DNA of 64,000 bases from Brachybacterium equifaecis. Its GTDB lineage: Bacteria > Actinomycetota > Actinomycetes > Actinomycetales > Dermabacteraceae. Of this stretch, positions 5,463 through 60,709 are shown piece by piece. Under the pieces are notes generated by a model. That model saw nothing but the letters and a program-made list of their open reading frames with translations. It was not told the origin of the DNA and did not search any database. The number at the start of each line of letters is the position of its first letter. Position 1 is the stretch's first letter. The translations under genes were made by a program, and so were the position numbers. The stretch covers positions 186,001-250,000 of the forward strand of contig NZ_JAKNCJ010000002.1 in NCBI RefSeq assembly GCF_023509525.1, read 5' to 3'.

Positions 5463-8951
<3,489 letters not shown>

Positions 8952-53911: not shown

Positions 53912-54259
53912 GTGACCACTCCCGCTGATCTCCCCGCTCCCCCGCAGCCCCGCGACCCCGATGCCCGCATCGTGTACCTCACGCGCGAGGGCTGCCACCT
54001 CTGCGACGTCGCCCTGCCGACGGTCCGCGCCGAGGCCGACCGCGCCGGCACCGTCGTGGAGGTGCGCGACATCGACGCCGAGCCCGCGCTGCGCGAGGAC
54101 TGGAACGACCACGTGCCCGTGATCGCCGTGGACGGCGCGGTTCTCTCCCGCTACGAGGTCGACGCCGACGAGCTCCGCCGTGCGCTCGCCCGAGGCGCGG
54201 TCCGCGGGCGCGGCGGCGCCCGGCCCGCCACGTGGCTCGGGCGGCTGCTGCGGCGCTAG
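53912..54259 (+). CDS. Glutaredoxin-like protein
   Basis: Small thioredoxin-fold protein, 115 residues, with the redox pair C28-C31 (CHLC) in YLTREGCHLCDVALP and the cis-proline in DHVPVIAVDG. It is close to the DUF836/glutaredoxin-like group. GTG at 53912 follows a TACCCT box by 7 nt, predicting a leaderless mRNA. The stop codon TAG lies inside the GCTAGC target of the adjacent transposon, which therefore inserted at the very end of the gene without changing the protein but displaced whatever terminator followed. Confidence 0.88.
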   Translation: MTTPADLPAPPQPRDPDARIVYLTREGCHLCDVALPTVRAEADRAGTVVEVRDIDAEPALREDWNDHVPVIAVDGAVLSRYEVDADELRRALARGAVRGRGGARPATWLGRLLRR

Positions 54260-55242
54260 CTGTACTGACCGGGGACGTTGGTCAATCGTGAGAAGGGCGG
54301 CTGGTCCCCGCAGGCCGTGTGGGGTCGGTGGTGGTTGTAGTAGTGCAGCCAGCCCTCCAGCTCGCCCCGGCGTTCGTCCTCGGAGGTGTAGCAGCGGGCG
54401 TAGGCCCAACCGTCGGCCAGAGTGCGGTGGAAGCGTTCGATCTTCCCGTTGGTCTGCGGCCGATACGGACGGGTGCGCTTGTGCTTGATCCCGAGCTCAA
54501 CGCAGGTGTCTCGCCACAGGTGCGACTTGTAGGCGCCGCCATTGTCTGAGAGGACCCGTTCGACGGTGACGCTGCGGGCGTTGAACCACTCGACAGCCCT
54601 CACCAGGACCGCGGTGGCGGTGATCGCGGTTTCGTCGTCGTGGATCTCGGCGTAGGCGACGCGGGAGTGGTCGTCGATGACGGTGTGGACGTAGGCCTTG
54701 CCCATTAACGGGTCCCGGTACTTGTTCCTAGGCTTGCCCGGCGTGGCTGCCCGGTTCTTCTCTCCTTGCCGGCGGCCGACATAGCGCCAGCCGCCGCCGT
54801 CGGGGATGTTGCCGAGCTTCTTCACGTCGACGTGGAGCATCGCGCCGGGATGGTCGTGCTCATAGCGTCGGACGGGCTCACCGGTAGCGCGGTCGACGTG
54901 GGAAAGCCGGTTCAGGTGGGCGTCGGTCAAGATCCGGTGGACCGTCGACGGGGCGATCCCCAGCCTGCACGCGAGCTGCACGGGTCCTTCCCGCAGTCGG
55001 AGACGGAGCTGGATGCAGCGTCTGGTGGTCTTCGCGCTGGTCTTGTTGGGCGAGTGGTGTGGTCGTGAGGAGCGGTCCTGCATCGGCTGGCCGGTCCGGT
55101 AGCGGTCGGCCCAACGCTTCACGGTCGGCCAGGAGACCTGGAAGCGGGCGGCGACTTCGCTGATCGGCCAGCCGTCGTCTACGACGAGACGACCGACGAG
55201 CAGGCGATGGCGGGGTGTGAGTGCTGCGTTGGGATGAGACAT
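54256..55242 (-). CDS. IS481-family transposase
   Basis: DDE/RNase-H-fold transposase, 328 residues, apparently intact. The N-terminal helix-turn-helix part (PRHRLLVGRLVVDDG, VSWPTVKRWADRYRTG) runs to about 70, with a second HTH to about 120 (GIAPSTVHRIL). The catalytic triad is Asp in LHVDVKKLGN (about 137), Asp in VLSDNGGAYKS and Glu in QTNGKIERFHRTL. The reading frame runs through the left terminal repeat and stops at TAG inside the flanking GCTAGC, so the stop codon is supplied by the target duplication. Confidence 0.95.
   Translation of the reverse strand: MSHPNAALTPRHRLLVGRLVVDDGWPISEVAARFQVSWPTVKRWADRYRTGQPMQDRSSRPHHSPNKTSAKTTRRCIQLRLRLREGPVQLACRLGIAPSTVHRILTDAHLNRLSHVDRATGEPVRRYEHDHPGAMLHVDVKKLGNIPDGGGWRYVGRRQGEKNRAATPGKPRNKYRDPLMGKAYVHTVIDDHSRVAYAEIHDDETAITATAVLVRAVEWFNARSVTVERVLSDNGGAYKSHLWRDTCVELGIKHKRTRPYRPQTNGKIERFHRTLADGWAYARCYTSEDERRGELEGWLHYYNHHRPHTACGDQPPFSRLTNVPGQYS
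54261..54283 (+). repeat. Left terminal inverted repeat
   Basis: Begins TGTACTGACCGG and pairs with 57729-57751 at 22 of 23 positions. On the minus strand it encodes the last transposase residues (TNVPGQYS). Confidence 0.9.
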
Positions 55243-55259
55243 CGTTCTCCGACATGGTG

Positions 55260-55290
55260 AGAGCCCGGCAGCTGGTAGCTGCCGGGCTCT
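55260..55290 (-). terminator. Hairpin after the SnoaL-like gene
   Basis: Perfect 14-bp arms (AGAGCCCGGCAGCT and complement) around GGT, between the SnoaL-like stop and the transposase start. It should insulate the transposase from passenger transcription. Confidence 0.75.
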
Positions 55291-55304
55291 GGGGGTCTTG
55301 GGGG

Positions 55305-55712
55305 TCAGTTGGTGGGGGTGAAAGCCTGATCGACCGCGTAAGTGTCCTCGTACATCTGGTACCCGGTGATCTGACCGTCCTGAACTGTGAAGTGGAGGGC
55401 GAAGTCGTTGGAGAATCTCTTGCCGGTGGCCAGGACGGGGAACTCGTTGTGGCCGAGTGCGACGGCATGGTCGCCGTCGACGACGATCTGGTGGATCGTG
55501 TATTCGGTGGCGGGTCCGAGGGCGGCGAATGCGGGGAAGAACGTGTCGAGTTCGTCGCGGGTGTGGCGAGTGCCGGCCCACGGGACGGCGGGGCTCCCGT
55601 GCACGGTGAAGTTGATGGTGGGTGCGAACAGGTTCTTGACCGTGTCGAGGTCGCCGGCACCGAAGGCCGAGAAGAAGTCTTCGACGGTCTGCTGGGTGGT
55701 GCGGGTGCTCAT
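55305..55712 (-). CDS. SnoaL/NTF2-like protein (transposon passenger)
   Basis: 135-residue cone-shaped fold protein of the SnoaL-like group: TVEDFFSAFGAGDLDTVKNL at the N-terminus, FAPTINFTVHG, then EYTIHQIVVDGDHAVALGHN and a C-terminal VQDGQITGYQMYEDTYAVD. The fold serves as isomerase, hydrolase or ligand-binding protein; the activity here is unknown. ATG overlaps the stop of the oxidoreductase gene (ATGA), so the two are co-translated and probably act on the same compound. Confidence 0.85.
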   Translation of the reverse strand: MSTRTTQQTVEDFFSAFGAGDLDTVKNLFAPTINFTVHGSPAVPWAGTRHTRDELDTFFPAFAALGPATEYTIHQIVVDGDHAVALGHNEFPVLATGKRFSNDFALHFTVQDGQITGYQMYEDTYAVDQAFTPTN

Positions 55713-56683
55713 GCGTTGTCTCCTTGGATGTGGATGATGGTCTTGCCTGGGGTCTTGTTGGTCTCGACGTGCAGTAGCGCGTCGCCGAGGTCACTCAGCG
55801 GGTAGCCAGCGCCGACCTGGACGGTGAGCCGCCCTCGCGCGGCCTGCTCGATGAGCAGTTCCAGGGCGTGATGGTCAGGCTCGACGAGCATCCGGCGAAG
55901 TCGTGGATCTCGTTGGGCCAAGTCGTCGTGGGCATAGGGGTGGAGTGCGACCACGACGCCATTAGGCGAGGCCATGGCCAAGGACCGTGGTGTCGTGTCA
56001 CCGCCGACTGTGTCGAGGACGACGTCGAAACAACCAGCGAACCTCTGCCAGTCCACGGTCGCGCGATCAACGACATGTCGCGTCCCGAGCACCTCGATCA
56101 ACGTCCTACCGCGATCACTGGTCACTGCCGTCACCTGCGCACCGAGGTTCACGGCGAGCTGACAGGCCAGGGACCCGACCCCGCCGGATGCAGCATGGAC
56201 GAGGACGGTTTGCCCCGACTGCAGGTGCGCCGTGTCCACCAGTGCTTGATAGGCGGTCAAGCCGGCGAGCGGGAGTCCGGCCCAGCGCCCCCAGGCGCCT
56301 GCAGACAGGTCTTCTGTGCCTGTTGGGATCCGTGCAAGGTGGCGGGCAGGGACAGCGGAGTACTGGGCGAACGCTGCGGCTGGTGCGGGGAAACGAGGCA
56401 TGCCGGTCACCGCATCACCGACGTCGAGCGCCGTGACTCCGCGTCCAAGCTTCACCACGATGCCCGACATGTCGTAGCCGCCCACGAACGGGACTGTCTG
56501 CCCTGTGACGAACACGCCCCTGCGCCAAGTCATGACGTCAGTGGGGTTGACCGAGGACGCCATGACTCGGACCAGAACCTCGCCCGGTCCGGGTTCTGGA
56601 ACCGGACATTGACGCAACTCAGGCCGCCCGCCGGGCGCAGGGATGATCGCGGCAAGCATGGTGCGCGGAAGTGACGGGTGCAT
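55709..56683 (-). CDS. Quinone-oxidoreductase-like NADPH-dependent reductase (passenger)
   Basis: Zinc-independent medium-chain reductase, 324 residues. The GroES-like N-terminal half contains ASSVNPTDVMTWRRG and VGGYDMSGIVVKLG. The Rossmann nucleotide loop is VLVHAASGGVGSLACQLAV near 165, and LDTVGGDTTPRSL follows. The typical zinc-binding cysteines are absent. Start ATG at 56683; an ATG eight codons later is possible. It is first in the operon with the SnoaL-like gene and divergent from the AraC-type regulator, a common arrangement for an inducible detoxification pair. Confidence 0.88.
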   Translation of the reverse strand: MHPSLPRTMLAAIIPAPGGRPELRQCPVPEPGPGEVLVRVMASSVNPTDVMTWRRGVFVTGQTVPFVGGYDMSGIVVKLGRGVTALDVGDAVTGMPRFPAPAAAFAQYSAVPARHLARIPTGTEDLSAGAWGRWAGLPLAGLTAYQALVDTAHLQSGQTVLVHAASGGVGSLACQLAVNLGAQVTAVTSDRGRTLIEVLGTRHVVDRATVDWQRFAGCFDVVLDTVGGDTTPRSLAMASPNGVVVALHPYAHDDLAQRDPRLRRMLVEPDHHALELLIEQAARGRLTVQVGAGYPLSDLGDALLHVETNKTPGKTIIHIQGDNA

Positions 56684-56754
56684 GACCACCAGCCTGTCGG
56701 TGGACGCCCCCACAGACGAGTGGCGTGAACGACACATTGTGCAAGGATCACGTC

Positions 56755-57756
56755 ATGCGTCATGTGGTCACGATCGCCTGCCCTGGCACCGCGCTGTTCG
56801 ACGTGGGGATCCCGTCACGAGTATTCGGCGCGGCCCGCACCGCAGACGATGAGCCGGCGTACGACGTCACGATCGCGTCACCGACTGGCGCCGGACCGCT
56901 CCTGACCAAGGACGGCGTGTCGGTCGACCTGCCAGGTGTGGACCAGATCAAGGAGACTGACACTGTCGTGGTCGCCTCGAGCGACGCACTGCTCGACCCG
57001 CTGGTCCGTCGCGACATGGCATCCGCGCTGGCCCCCTTCCTGCTACAGGGGCAAGCCGTGCGACCTGGCGTCCGTGTCGCTGCGGTCTGTTCGGGAGCGT
57101 TCCTTCTGGGGGAGCTGGGCCTGCTTGACCATCGCACGGCCACGACCCACTGGCGACTGGCTGACCAGCTCGCCAAGCTGTTCCCTTCCACCCATCTGCA
57201 AACGGAGTCGCTCTACATCGAGGACGACGGAGTTTTGACCTCGGGTGGAGTGGCTGCGGGCATAGACCTGTGCCTACACATGATCCGACAGGACTACGGA
57301 GTCCGGATCTCCAACAACGTCGCCCGCAGTTGTGTGGTGGCGCCCTTCAGAGAGGGCGGGCAGGCACAGTATGTCCAAACACCAGTGCCCCGCTCTGCGG
57401 ACCCCTCGATGAACGACTTGGTCCACTGGTTGCTGGAGACACTCGACCAGCGCCACACGCTGGAAGACATCGCCCACCGGGGGCACATGAGCACCCGCAC
57501 CTTTGAACGGCGCTTTCGCCGAGAGCACGGCACAAGCCCCGGACAGTGGCTGACAGCTGCACGTATCCAGCGAGCCAAAGAACTGCTCGAGTCCACAGAC
57601 CTGCCCGTCGAGCGCATCGCCGAGCTGGTGGGCCTCGGCACGGCCAGCAACCTACGAACCCACTTCACCCGCTGCGTCGGACGAACGCCCCAGGCTTATC
57701 GCCGCTCCTTCACCGCGGGCAGCAATTCGACCAACGTCTCCGGTCAGTACAGCTAG
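56755..57756 (+). CDS. GlxA/AraC-family transcriptional regulator (passenger)
   Basis: 333 residues. An N-terminal DJ-1/PfpI-like domain at about 1-190 (VTIACPGTALFDVGIPSRVF, VAAVCSGAFLLGELGLLD with the nucleophile-elbow cysteine) is followed by a C-terminal AraC double helix-turn-helix at about 230-325 (HTLEDIAHRGHMSTRTFERR, PVERIAELVGLGTASNLRTH). AAGGA precedes ATG at 56755; an ATG 10 codons earlier is less likely. It probably controls the divergent oxidoreductase operon. The last eight residues (TNVSGQYS) are read from the right terminal repeat, and TAG comes from the duplicated target, so its native C-terminus was replaced on capture. Confidence 0.9.
   Translation: MRHVVTIACPGTALFDVGIPSRVFGAARTADDEPAYDVTIASPTGAGPLLTKDGVSVDLPGVDQIKETDTVVVASSDALLDPLVRRDMASALAPFLLQGQAVRPGVRVAAVCSGAFLLGELGLLDHRTATTHWRLADQLAKLFPSTHLQTESLYIEDDGVLTSGGVAAGIDLCLHMIRQDYGVRISNNVARSCVVAPFREGGQAQYVQTPVPRSADPSMNDLVHWLLETLDQRHTLEDIAHRGHMSTRTFERRFRREHGTSPGQWLTAARIQRAKELLESTDLPVERIAELVGLGTASNLRTHFTRCVGRTPQAYRRSFTAGSNSTNVSGQYS
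57729..57751 (-). repeat. Right terminal inverted repeat
   Basis: Complement of the left end with one substitution. On the plus strand it encodes the last residues of the regulator (TNVSGQYS). Confidence 0.9.
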
Positions 57757-58228
57757 CGGCGCGGCCGCCGTCGGCCCGACGGGTGCTGCGGCGGCAGATC
57801 AGTCCGCCGGCCGACACTGCCGGCGGCGATGCGGCGATGCGTCGGGGCGTCGGGGCGTCGGGGCGTCGATCGAGGCGTACCTGACCGTCGGATAGATGCC
57901 GGATACCGACGGTCCCGTACGCGTCGATGCACGCGTGGGTCGAATACCGACGGCCACGTACGCCTCGATGCGTGCGGGGGGCCGATACCCACGCGCAGGT
58001 ACGCGTCGCTCCGTGCAGCATCCCTCGCGCACCGCCCTCGGGCTACCGCTGATCGAGGTGCGTGCAGACGTCGGATCGATGCCCCCATACCGGCGTCCAG
58101 ACGCGCCTCGATCCGGTGCGCAGCCGCATTCCGACACTTAAGCGCACCCCGATCGGTGCGCACGCTCTCCGGGCGGATCCCGCAGCCACCGTCAGATCGA
58201 GGTGTACGTGGCCGTCGGAAAGGACCCG
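57757..58228. other. Non-coding repeat region right of the IS481 element
   Basis: No credible gene in 472 nt. It starts with the displaced 3' flank of the glutaredoxin-like gene, has three perfect tandem GTCGGGGC octamers at 57841-57864, and is then filled by copies of a 28-bp repeat in both orientations. Short open frames here are repeat artefacts rich in Arg/Ser. Confidence 0.75.
57868..58222. repeat. 28-bp repeat array, left part (41-bp period)
   Basis: Forward copies (ATACCGACGG...GTACGCCTCGATGC) start at 57903, 57944, 57985, 58087 and 58128; adjacent ones are exactly 41 bp apart with 13-nt spacers. Inverted copies (GATCGAGG...CCGTCGGA) lie at 57868-57895, 58051-58078 and 58195-58222, each head to head with the next forward copy across a 7-8 nt gap. 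Copies 57985, 58051, 58087 and 58128 are diverged. The pattern resumes at 60710 beyond the IS30 elements. Confidence 0.8.
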
Positions 58229-58789
58229 GCGGATTCAAGGGGTCACTGCAACAGGTGCTCCGAGAGTACCTCGTAGGGAGTCCGGAACCCCAGGCGCTTC
58301 CGCGGCCGACGGTTCATCTGGTCAGCAACGAAATCTAGGTCCGCCTGCGCGAAGCCATCGAGACTCGTCCCTTTCGGGAAGTACTGCCGCAGCAAACCAT
58401 TGGTGTTTTCATTCGTGGCGCGCTGCCATGGAGAATGTGGATCGGCGAAGAACACATCGAGCCCCGTCGCAATACTCACCGCTCTATGTTGCGCCATCTC
58501 TGTCCCCCGATCCCATGTTAGCGTCTGCTCGAGCGTTTCCGGGAGCTCTGTCAGTTTGGCGATCAGTCCGTCACGGGTCGCTTCGACACGGCTCTTTTCG
58601 GGGTCCAGCCAGACGAGAACCAGATAGGTCGAGTGTCGCTCCACAACAGTCCCTATTGCTGAACCGCCATTCCTCCCTACGATCAGATCCCCTTCCCAGT
58701 GCCCCGGTATGCCGCGGTCCAGGGCTTCCACGGGCCGGTCCCAGATCGAGACCACGTCGCGAAGCCTCCCGCGGCGCTCATCTGGGCGG

Positions 58790-60024
58790 GCGGATTCAAT
58801 GAGTCATCGCAACAGATGCTCGGAGAGTACTTCATGGGGAGTGGCGAATTCCAGACGCTTGCGCGGACGGCGGTTCATCTGGTCGGCGACGAAGTCCAGA
58901 TCGGTCTGCGTGAAGCCCTTCAGATCAGTCCCTTTGGGGAAGTACTGCCGCAGAAGACCGTTGGTGTTCTCGTTGGTCGCGCGTTGCCAGGGTGAATGCG
59001 GATCGGCGAAGAACACGTCGATTCCCGTCGCCACGCTGACTGCCTTGTGCTGCGCCATTTCTCTTCCCTGGTCCCAGGTCAGTGTCCCCTTCAGTGTCTC
59101 CGGGAGGCCCGCGAGCTTGGTGATGAGGCCGTCGCGAGTGGCTTCGATTCTGTTCTTCTCCGGATCGGGCCAGACGAGGATCAAGTAGTTCGAGTGGCGC
59201 TCCACGATCGTCGCGATCGCGGATGCGCCGTCTTTCCCGACGATCAGATCTCCTTCCCAGTGCCCGGGAATGCTGCGGTCCAGGGCCTCTTCCGGGCGAT
59301 CCCAGATCGAGACCATGTCGCGGATCCGTCCGCGCCGCTCGTCAGGCCGGCGCTGGGACCAGCGGATCGTCCGGCCCGTGCGCGTCAGGGCCTGCAGGTC
59401 TCTCTTAAGGCCGCCTCGGGCCTGCAGATAGATCGTCTTGTAGATCGTCTCGTGGCTCACGTGCCAGGCCGGATCGTCAGGATGCTCACGACGCAAGCGT
59501 CCCACGATCTGCTCCGGAGAGAGCTTCTCGTCGATTCCGGCCTGCACCGCGGCGAGCAGTCCAGGATCGGACGAGATCTTCAACGGCTTCGGGCGCCGTC
59601 GCTTCTCTGCCGAGGCTCGCTGCCCTCTCAGGGGGCTATAGCGACTGCGAGTTCCACGCGCGGAACCTCGCGCGATTTCGCGGGAGACCGTCGACGGCGC
59701 CCGCCCGATTGCGCTGGCTATCGAACGCATAGAAGCGCCCTCGATCAGCATCTCCTTGATCTTGAATCGCTCCTCCAGTGTGAGGAGACGATCAGGGTCC
59801 TTCCACTTCCGAGGCTTCATGCCTCCGGTGTGTTCAAGGAACCTTCCGACCGAGACGTGACTCGTTCCGAACTGCTCCGCCAGTTGCCTGCTCGTCGCTC
59901 CCATCCCCCGAGCATCCCAGAACGCCTCGATCTGCGTCCTCGACCGATCACGAAGACCCACTCCACGAACACTTCCCACAACACCCTCCTCAGCTCAGGT
60001 GTTGCACCGACCCCTAGAACCCGC
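58790..60024 (-). mobile_element. Intact IS30-family insertion sequence nested in the older copy
   Basis: About 1.2 kb. The inward-facing ends begin GCGGATTCAATGAGTC (left) and GCGGGTTCTAGGGGTC (right), both followed by GCAACA. It lies inside the transposase gene of the older element; removing it and a short GGCG-like duplication rejoins the older frame. The two elements are diverged relatives rather than recent copies of each other. Confidence 0.85.
58804..59979 (-). CDS. IS30-family transposase
   Basis: 391 residues, intact. It has an N-terminal helix-turn-helix (GATSRQLAEQFGTSHVSVGR), then the IS30-type HTH (KIKEMLIEGASMRSIASAIG, RAPSTVSREIARGS) and a DDE domain: Asp in PGHWEGDLIVGKDG, Asp in LTWDQGREMAQH and Glu in RATNENTNGLLRQYF. 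The end RPRKRLEFATPHEVLSEHLL is typical. Start GTG at 59979 with GAGGAGG upstream. It could mobilise itself and perhaps act on the older element's ends. Confidence 0.95.
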   Translation of the reverse strand: MGSVRGVGLRDRSRTQIEAFWDARGMGATSRQLAEQFGTSHVSVGRFLEHTGGMKPRKWKDPDRLLTLEERFKIKEMLIEGASMRSIASAIGRAPSTVSREIARGSARGTRSRYSPLRGQRASAEKRRRPKPLKISSDPGLLAAVQAGIDEKLSPEQIVGRLRREHPDDPAWHVSHETIYKTIYLQARGGLKRDLQALTRTGRTIRWSQRRPDERRGRIRDMVSIWDRPEEALDRSIPGHWEGDLIVGKDGASAIATIVERHSNYLILVWPDPEKNRIEATRDGLITKLAGLPETLKGTLTWDQGREMAQHKAVSVATGIDVFFADPHSPWQRATNENTNGLLRQYFPKGTDLKGFTQTDLDFVADQMNRRPRKRLEFATPHEVLSEHLLR

Positions 60025-60709
60025 GGCGCCGCTTCGTATGGCGGATCGTGCGGCCCGTGCGTGTCAGTGCCTGCAGCTCACGCTTGAGACCGCCTCGGGC
60101 CTGCAGATAGATGGTCTTGTAGATAGTCTCGTGGCTCACGCGCCAGGCCGGATCATCAGGATGCTCATACCGCAAGCGTCCCACAATCTGCTCGGGAGAG
60201 AGCTTCTCATTGAGACCTTTCTGCACGGCGGCGAGAAGGGCGGGGTCCGAAGTGATCTTCAAAGGTTTGGGGCGCTCACGGTTCGCAACCGCAATCCGAT
60301 GACTCTTCAGAGCCTGATAACCGGCGCGATGCCCAAGAGGTGAGCCTCGCTTGATCTCACGAGATATCGTCGAGGGCGCGCGACCGATTGTTGCAGCGAT
60401 ACTTCGGATCGAAGCACCCTCGATTAGCATTTCCTTGATTTGGAACCGCTCTTCCAATGTAAGAAGTCGGTCGAGATTTTCCACTTTTCGGGTCTGATCC
60501 CGCCTGAACGCGCGAGAAACCGCCCGATTGTGGCGTGGTTGGTATCGAACTGGACCCCGAGTTGACTGGCCGATGCTCCCATGGCGCGAGCATCCCAGAA
60601 GGCTTCGATCTCTGCACGCGGCCGGTCACGGAATGCGGAGCTTCCAACACGTTCCACAACACTCTCCTCAGCTCAGGTGTTGCAACGACCCCTGGAACCC
60701 GCGCCCGCG

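Follow-up and report, generated by a model that had tools for sequence, protein, structure and literature searches.

A 64,000-nucleotide stretch of the Brachybacterium equifaecis genome (contig NZ_JAKNCJ010000002.1, positions 186,001 to 250,000; hereafter the window, in whose numbering all coordinates are given) contains an IS481-family unit transposon of 3,491 bp (Table 1), in which a single pair of inverted ends encloses a transposase and a cassette of three passenger genes. Comparison with related sequences makes it very probable that the element was transferred as a unit; this confidence concerns the transposon and leaves the function of its cassette aside.

Table 1. Features of the transposon and its target site, in window coordinates
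Feature	Coordinates	Strand	Details
Target site, left GCTAGC copy	54255-54260		TAG inside is the stop of the host Glrx-like gene (53912-54259)
IS481-family transposase	54256-55242	-	328 amino acids; stop codon from the GCTAGC target copy
IS481-family unit transposon	54261-57751		3,491 bp; one pair of ends
Terminal inverted repeat, transposase side	54261-54283	+	23 bp, TGTACTGACCGGGGACGTTGGTC
Hairpin between cassette and transposase	55260-55290		Perfect 14-bp stem, 3-nt loop; 17 nt before the transposase ATG; z -5.8
SnoaL_2 / NTF2-like protein	55305-55712	-	135 amino acids
Medium-chain reductase, quinone-oxidoreductase-like	55709-56659	-	316 amino acids; ADH_N, ADH_zinc_N_2; 4-bp overlap with the SnoaL gene
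Divergent promoter region (presumed from layout)	56660-56754		Between the reductase-SnoaL operon and the regulator
AraC-family regulator with N-terminal DJ-1/PfpI domain (FtrA/GlxA/AdpA-like)	56755-57756	+	333 amino acids; C-terminal tail and stop from the inverted repeat and target copy
Terminal inverted repeat, cassette side	57729-57751	-	Inverted copy of TGTACTGACCGGGGACGTTGGTC, 1 mismatch (22/23)
Target site, right GCTAGC copy	57752-57757		Hexamer identical to the left copy

An earlier note on this DNA had described one pair of 23-bp inverted ends with a perfect GCTAGC duplication, enclosing one IS481 transposase and three other genes. This description was borne out: the ends agree at 22 of 23 positions, the hexamers outside them are identical, and all four proteins match profile or Pfam models. 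The transposase scores 345 bits against the NF033577 model (cut-off 224) and contains the rve, rve_3 and LZ_Tnp_IS481 domains; it is a DDE transposase assigned to the IS481 family, with catalytic activity predicted from the domain match. Members of this family have short inverted ends of the form TGT...ACA, which the ends of the window element fit, and a duplication around CTAG is present on both sides as GCTAGC. The end pattern has only two matches in the window at up to three mismatches, and 100 shuffles gave none. No third end occurs in the window at up to six mismatches to the left end, so none lies between the transposase and SnoaL genes; the note had likewise seen no internal end, and no short IS481 copy ending between those two genes was found in the window. 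A composite transposon was ruled out by the single transposase, the single pair of ends and the lack of a full insertion sequence (IS) on each side. Among the families listed in the domain scans, no integron integrase model matched any of the four element genes.

GCTAGC is a palindrome and the family target is NCTAGN, so that one pair of equal hexamers is by itself weak evidence of duplication. Across the group of related elements, the duplication is shown to be real by flanking hexamers that are identical in 45 of the 65 elements with both flanks readable; NCTAGN is found at 56 left and 56 right flanks of these elements. In the window, the element targeted the Glrx stop codon (CGC TAG C). As a consequence not pointed out in the earlier note, three genes, namely those for the transposase, the AraC regulator and the host Glrx-like protein, end at the TAG of the GCTAGC copies, and the final residues of the first two proteins are encoded by the element ends: the end-encoded C terminus of the regulator, TNVSGQYS, mirrors TNVPGQYS of the transposase. 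An open frame of at least 140 codons exits through the distal end in 9 of 56 cargo-bearing elements.

An element of equal length, 93.3% identical end to end, is present in Kocuria subflava (NZ_JAAVUN010000036, locus L035), the nearest named transposase locus to the window element among the best 80 of 304 relatives. The DNA flanking it differs from that in the window over the 60 bp compared on each side, and all four frames are open in both copies. The ratio of nonsynonymous to synonymous substitution rates (dN/dS) between the copies, based on few counted changes, is 0.23 for the regulator, 0.34 for the reductase, 0.21 for the SnoaL-like protein and 0.10 for the transposase.

The insertion site was compared with 24 same-genus loci, from 24 of the 26 same-genus genomes that have a Glrx match. 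In these relatives the Glrx-like gene is directly followed by a small gene on the opposite strand, which we take to be bS22-like, and then by a large gene that lies beyond 61 kb in the window. The Glrx-bS22 gap is 62-326 bp (median 161) in 23 of the 24 loci versus 6,651 bp in the window, where the extra DNA consists of the element and sequences presumably of IS30 type; the remaining locus (L129) ends early and bS22 was not found there. No element end was detected in the 23 Glrx-bS22 loci with four mismatches allowed, and the cargo DNA was not found in 97 other genomes of the genus, family and order beyond weak homology and ends (best other match 65% over 463 bp). Thus the passengers are not ancestral at this locus, a possibility that the earlier note had raised against itself. 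Because the same 3,491-bp unit lies between different flanks in Kocuria and the site is empty in 23 of 24 loci, the unit appears to have moved whole, which supports the note's expectation that the entire 3.49 kb moves together. The DDE transposase would act on the two 23-bp ends, insert the whole unit at NCTAGN and duplicate the hexamer, a chemistry taken from the family.

Several points weigh against this interpretation. The flanks of the Kocuria copy are unequal (CCTAGA/GCTAGG), leaving the window copy as the only one of the two with a clean duplication, and 20 of the 65 elements lack identical flanks. Mobility is deduced from sequence comparison. The element could be a fossil, that is, a former transposon now immobile and retained because the host uses its operon, as its single copy in the window genome and the purifying selection on its passenger genes would allow; this is improbable, however, given that the transposase frame is open with its family domains and a dN/dS of only 0.10 relative to the Kocuria copy, that both ends are intact (22/23) with identical hexamers, and that a second genus has the same unit with different DNA around it. 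Although plain IS481 elements of 1.1 kb bearing similar ends exist, the idea that one of them merely adjoins an unrelated operon, its far end being coincidental or the relic of a second IS, is refuted by the identical boundaries of the Kocuria copy in a second genus and can be set aside almost entirely, there being no end between transposase and cargo and the ends lying 1.85-3.8 kb apart in 52 of 67 delimited named loci.

The window element is one of a clade of IS481 elements in which cargo is the rule. The 80 best of 304 named transposase relatives were taken and 67 of them delimited; 52 of these are cargo-bearing and 1.85-3.8 kb long, and 15 are plain at 1.09-1.17 kb. Thirteen fell outside the boundary set: L045 has no distal end; L065, L092, L093 and L095 have no proximal end near the match and are perhaps cargo-bearing too, with distal ends 1.1-1.6 kb upstream of the transposase match; and L075, L076, L077, L078, L087, L088, L089 and L100 reach a contig edge or gave no ends. 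L071, whose proximal end has seven mismatches, was kept as doubtful. Two elements are lengthened by a nested insertion in the cassette region, identified by eye as IS3-like frames in L066 and another IS481-type transposase in L084. A transposase tree of 71 rows (the 67 elements and four from the window genome) was built by a quick method, with the Shimodaira-Hasegawa-like approximate likelihood ratio test (SH-aLRT) as sole support and a root chosen on plain rows, and gives no direction for cargo gain or loss. Behind a branch with SH-aLRT 98 lies a clade of 57 rows, 56 of which carry cargo; the remaining 14 rows are all plain 1.1-kb ISs. The only cargo-free member of the clade (L083, Arthrobacter sp. 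B1805, 6813-7982, 1,170 bp) is a possible secondary loss. The earlier note's view that IS481 elements are normally about 1 kb with only a transposase thus holds for the plain rows but not for this lineage, where cargo is unexceptional and one such element, ISArsp12, is already published.

The window genome has three other close copies, with ends 2.5-2.6 kb apart. Their cargo comprises WYL and alpha/beta hydrolase proteins in one, HxlR, unassigned and TfoX-like proteins in another, and a WYL regulator in the third, whose cargo is 99.3% identical to that of a WYL plus RidA-type element of Brevibacterium aurantiacum. A fifth end of the same type lies unpaired on contig 22 (G000:C22:89761-89783, minus strand), with no opposite end listed. 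A search with the end pattern located ends in 27 of 297 genomes, with 26 opposite pairs within 10 kb, 24 of them 1.5-4 kb apart; in one same-genus genome (G013) the end pairs span 3,172/3,125 and 2,436 bp, lengths matching loci of Brachybacterium nesterenkovii.

The cargo DNA of 56 elements was clustered into 21 types, each of which was represented by one element in the Pfam scan (type 7 by two). A one-component regulator was present in the scanned representative of all 21 types, belonging to the AraC with DJ-1 domain, AraC, WYL or HTH_11, HxlR, MerR-TipAS, TetR, XRE-cupin, MarR, LysR or ArsR families, with a weak IclR-type match in L063 (E 4e-6). The regulators are accompanied by glyoxalase/VOC, SnoaL, Polyketide_cyc2, cupin, RidA, alpha/beta hydrolase, RibD_C, mycothiol-isomerase-like and DUF proteins, as well as transporters (EamA, MFS, ABC and ArsP-type). 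Regulators make up 22 of the 51 cargo open reading frames scanned versus 1 of 30 flank frames (Fisher p 8e-5), the latter drawn at random from 62 with a codon-bias filter stricter than that for cargo frames. Any Pfam match was found in 18 of the 30 flank frames, and their sole helix-turn-helix match is an antitoxin-like gene beside a HigB-like toxin. Plasmid cargo agrees among the five of 42 records with the highest transposase identity (75.6-91.8%): Rrf2 with an NAD(P)H-binding protein (pLMV7), ArsR with a permease (pA2H1), WYL with RidA (two Dietzia plasmids) and WYL with VOC (pA505).

Some further loci bear on cassette content. In the Kocuria rhizophila plasmid CP124834, TipAS and DUF2268 frames adjoin the match and correspond to cassette type 2. 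The Dermacoccus abyssi plasmid record CP043032 ends within the region, and its visible part names no regulator. An element of the same clade in Propioniferax innocua (L068, 4728-7991) combines a DJ-1/AraC regulator, 40% identical to that of the window, with a DJ-1 protein and a SnoaL-like DUF1348 protein, and is thus a second cassette built from the same kind of parts as the window's.

Elements with different cargo are alike in the transposase frame and, at 0.90 identity, in the end that makes up their first 20-25 bp, with background identity between the two. A conserved leader upstream of the transposase was rejected, identity there being about 0.27-0.32 among different-cargo elements. In this clade, the stretch from the distal end to the start codon of the transposase holds one of many regulator-plus-effector cassettes. 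These would pass between elements by recombination ending at or inside the transposase gene; such recombination would suffice for exchange because any cassette brings its own near-identical distal end.

The pattern expected of such exchange is visible in young pairs of elements. Of the 34 same-type pairs whose cargo identity is 94% or more, six have a transposase at least 4 points lower (cargo/transposase identity in %: L041/L056, 99.7/92.8; L039/L061, 98.7/89.8; L058/L080, 98.7/90.1; L048/L064, 97.5/88.8; L059/L079, 96.6/89.5; window/L035, 94.6/89.9); many of the other 28 are near-copies, such as four of Corynebacterium pilosum. Mismatches step up at the transposase start in L048/L064, a pair that also has 8 mismatches in the first 50 bp at the distal end. 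The step lies 100-150 bp into the transposase in L039/L061, L059/L079 and window/L035, and deeper in L058/L080 (near 200 bp, mosaic) and L041/L056 (300 bp). Between the window element and L035, synonymous differences affect 73 of 243 sites in the transposase versus 69 of 615 in the cargo (p 2e-10). On the transposase tree the cassette labels need 28 changes where the minimum is 20, and type 1 needs at least 3 on the starred branches alone. Recombination ending at or inside the transposase would explain both the identity steps and the extra label changes, which suggests that cassettes have been exchanged among elements of the clade.

Two results tell against exchange. Over all 124 same-type pairs, the cargo is at least 4 points above the transposase in 19, below it in 57 and within 4 points in 48, so that higher cargo identity was rejected as a general rule and exchange is visible only in younger pairs; a transposase under constraint, paired with old cargo that drifts, would produce the majority direction. 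The six pairs show no significant excess of unequal flanks (6 of 12 elements versus 12 of 40 others, p 0.30), which were rejected as a crossover mark. The alternative that cassettes were freshly captured from host operons, or that the steps reflect gene conversion of the transposase only and not crossover exchange, is unlikely, although it retains appreciable weight. A similar operon does exist without these ends (see below), but independent capture would not place near-identical cassettes (97.5-99.7%) with a shared distal boundary on transposases 89-93% identical. Conversion between transposase genes would likewise lower transposase identity relative to the cargo, and it keeps its share of the probability because unequal flanks are no commoner and the L039/L061 transposases are identical again at their far end; L058/L080 also looks mosaic, and conversion and crossover are inseparable with these data.

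The lineage may be an integrase-free cassette-exchange platform, a proposal that we place slightly below an even chance: a near-universal regulated cassette would be diversified by recombination in the transposase gene and then spread by transposition across genera, with the regulator under selection. Each cassette would be self-contained, consisting of a one-component regulator and 1-3 effectors, and homologous recombination in the transposase gene would join any cassette and its distal end to any transposase. The regulator would be a selected requirement in that it prevents expression of the cargo in a new host as long as its ligand is absent.

The cassette of the window element has the gene layout given in the earlier note, a reductase and SnoaL-like operon with a divergent GlxA-type regulator, and this layout points to control of the operon by the regulator. 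The DNA-binding half of the regulator is nearest AdpA and its other half nearest isonitrile hydratase/DJ-1 chains; an alternative GTG start is possible at 56725. Relatives of solved structure place the SnoaL_2 protein among NTF2-like proteins. The reductase, for which further in-frame starts are possible upstream, has as its best PDB match the quinone oxidoreductase 3tqh (E 2e-30), with 3gaz also among the best chains of quinone oxidoreductase type, and scores 133.5 bits against the PIG3 subfamily model, below its cut-off of 296.8. In the alignment to these chains, read by eye, SSVNPTDVM falls where zinc alcohol dehydrogenases carry a catalytic cysteine, and the reductase is therefore tentatively read as zinc-free. 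A scan of 54200-57800 returned no sigma-70-type promoter, and the two terminator-like sites there are at the shuffled level (mean 1.3); no operator was recognised.

A plasmid of Streptomyces sp. NBC_01591 has the same divergent order of AraC regulator and reductase-SnoaL genes, with protein identities of 45.6, 44.3 and 54.0%, and lacks such ends over the 7.4 kb examined, at up to three mismatches. Homologues of the regulator and reductase are also divergent, by coordinates, in several Streptomyces-type plasmids. The cargo thus appears to be a captured actinobacterial operon of the NBC_01591 kind. The trio is rare, which counts against this origin: among 394 genomes searched, SnoaL relatives (E <= 1e-15) occur in 31 others and reductase relatives (E <= 1e-60) in two others, and none of the 29 SnoaL-relative loci examined has a reductase or regulator homologue within 1.5 kb. 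No reductase relative was found in IMG/VR viral contigs. Partial sets exist, with only the SnoaL relative in L171 (Embleya), only the reductase in L173, and the regulator and reductase in L174. The cassette may act on a small carbonyl or quinone-like compound that the regulator senses, converting or detoxifying it on induction. This role is offered tentatively and with less than even confidence; like the small electrophile or quinone of the earlier note, it is a guess from protein families.

Of 54 cargo elements, 16 (from 10 of 21 types) have a perfect stem of at least 10 bp, like that of the junction hairpin but in unrelated sequence, within the 70 nt upstream of the transposase start; L081 and L097, in which this start was not located, were left out. 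Such stems occur in none of 15 plain elements and in 2 of 1,231 control windows. Because the plain elements shown mostly fold strongly too, by imperfect stems, the hairpin does not mark cargo elements specifically. It may insulate the transposase from read-through out of the cassette; it has no U-run.

Beyond the right end, a non-coding segment (57860-58220) contains several direct and inverted copies of a unit of about 29-41 bp (CCGACGG..CGTACGC.TCGATGC) and separates the element from several transposase frames, some apparently broken, at 58243-60484. We take these frames to be of IS30 type. Together with the element they fill 6.6 kb absent from the relatives.

Cargo-bearing IS481 elements are already known as a kind, of which the window element is a further member. 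ISArsp12 of the Arthrobacter plasmid pA2H1 is described as an IS481 element with the end TGTACTGACCGGACACGTTG, the CTAG-centred duplication CCTAGA and a regulator-plus-permease cassette (PMC6305408). Its end shares 18 and 19 of 20 letters with the two ends of the window element, which fit the ISArsp12-type end TGTACTGACCGG..ACGTTG (compared with the sequence in PMC6305408), and its transposase is 89.6% identical to that of the window. As in the ISArsp12-type group, the window cargo lies between the distal end and the transposase start; the window element is larger than ISArsp12 (2,615 bp) and carries an AraC/reductase/SnoaL cassette instead of ArsR and a permease. L064 matches the pA2H1 element at 99.9% identity over 2,615 bp and falls with the window element in the 57-row clade (SH-aLRT 98). 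Its contig is labelled Vibrio cholerae strain 35D, a gammaproteobacterium, though the element is that of an Arthrobacter plasmid, and contamination is likely. ISPfr21, also of the IS481 family, is known here through the text of PMC6305408 alone.

TnRErm46/ISRe46 of Rhodococcus equi is reported as an IS481 transposon with cargo and many insertion sites, and the same paper states that members of the family may carry resistance genes and regulators (PMC6794481). It resembles the window element in its IS481 transposase, its NCTAGN duplication, its cargo including a regulator, and the use of the target TAG as a stop for both the transposase and a host gene; it differs in its end (TGTTGCGGGTCATGACGTTG), its length of 6.9 kb and its six cargo genes, including a resistance gene (PMC6794481). 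In Tn5564/IS5564 of Corynebacterium striatum pTP10, an IS481 transposase 64.2% identical to the window's also lies beside cargo, the exporter gene cmx being directly upstream. The NBC_01591 plasmid locus shares gene order and divergent layout with the window but has no such ends in its 7.4 kb and only 44-54% protein identity. In an open-access literature search, the portions of text available held no description of the clade-wide cargo habit, the regulator rule or recombination between cassette and transposase.

Small ISs are usually counted as gene-poor parasites, and annotation based on an expected IS481 length of 1 kb will overlook the true element boundary. The lineage described here suggests instead that the 1-kb core of an IS can serve as a permanent carrier of regulated metabolic and export cassettes across actinobacterial genera. 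These cassettes can be listed and tested individually, and if the regulator rule is true, the cargo would provide a catalogue of sensor-effector pairs, for which reporter assays could reveal the ligands.

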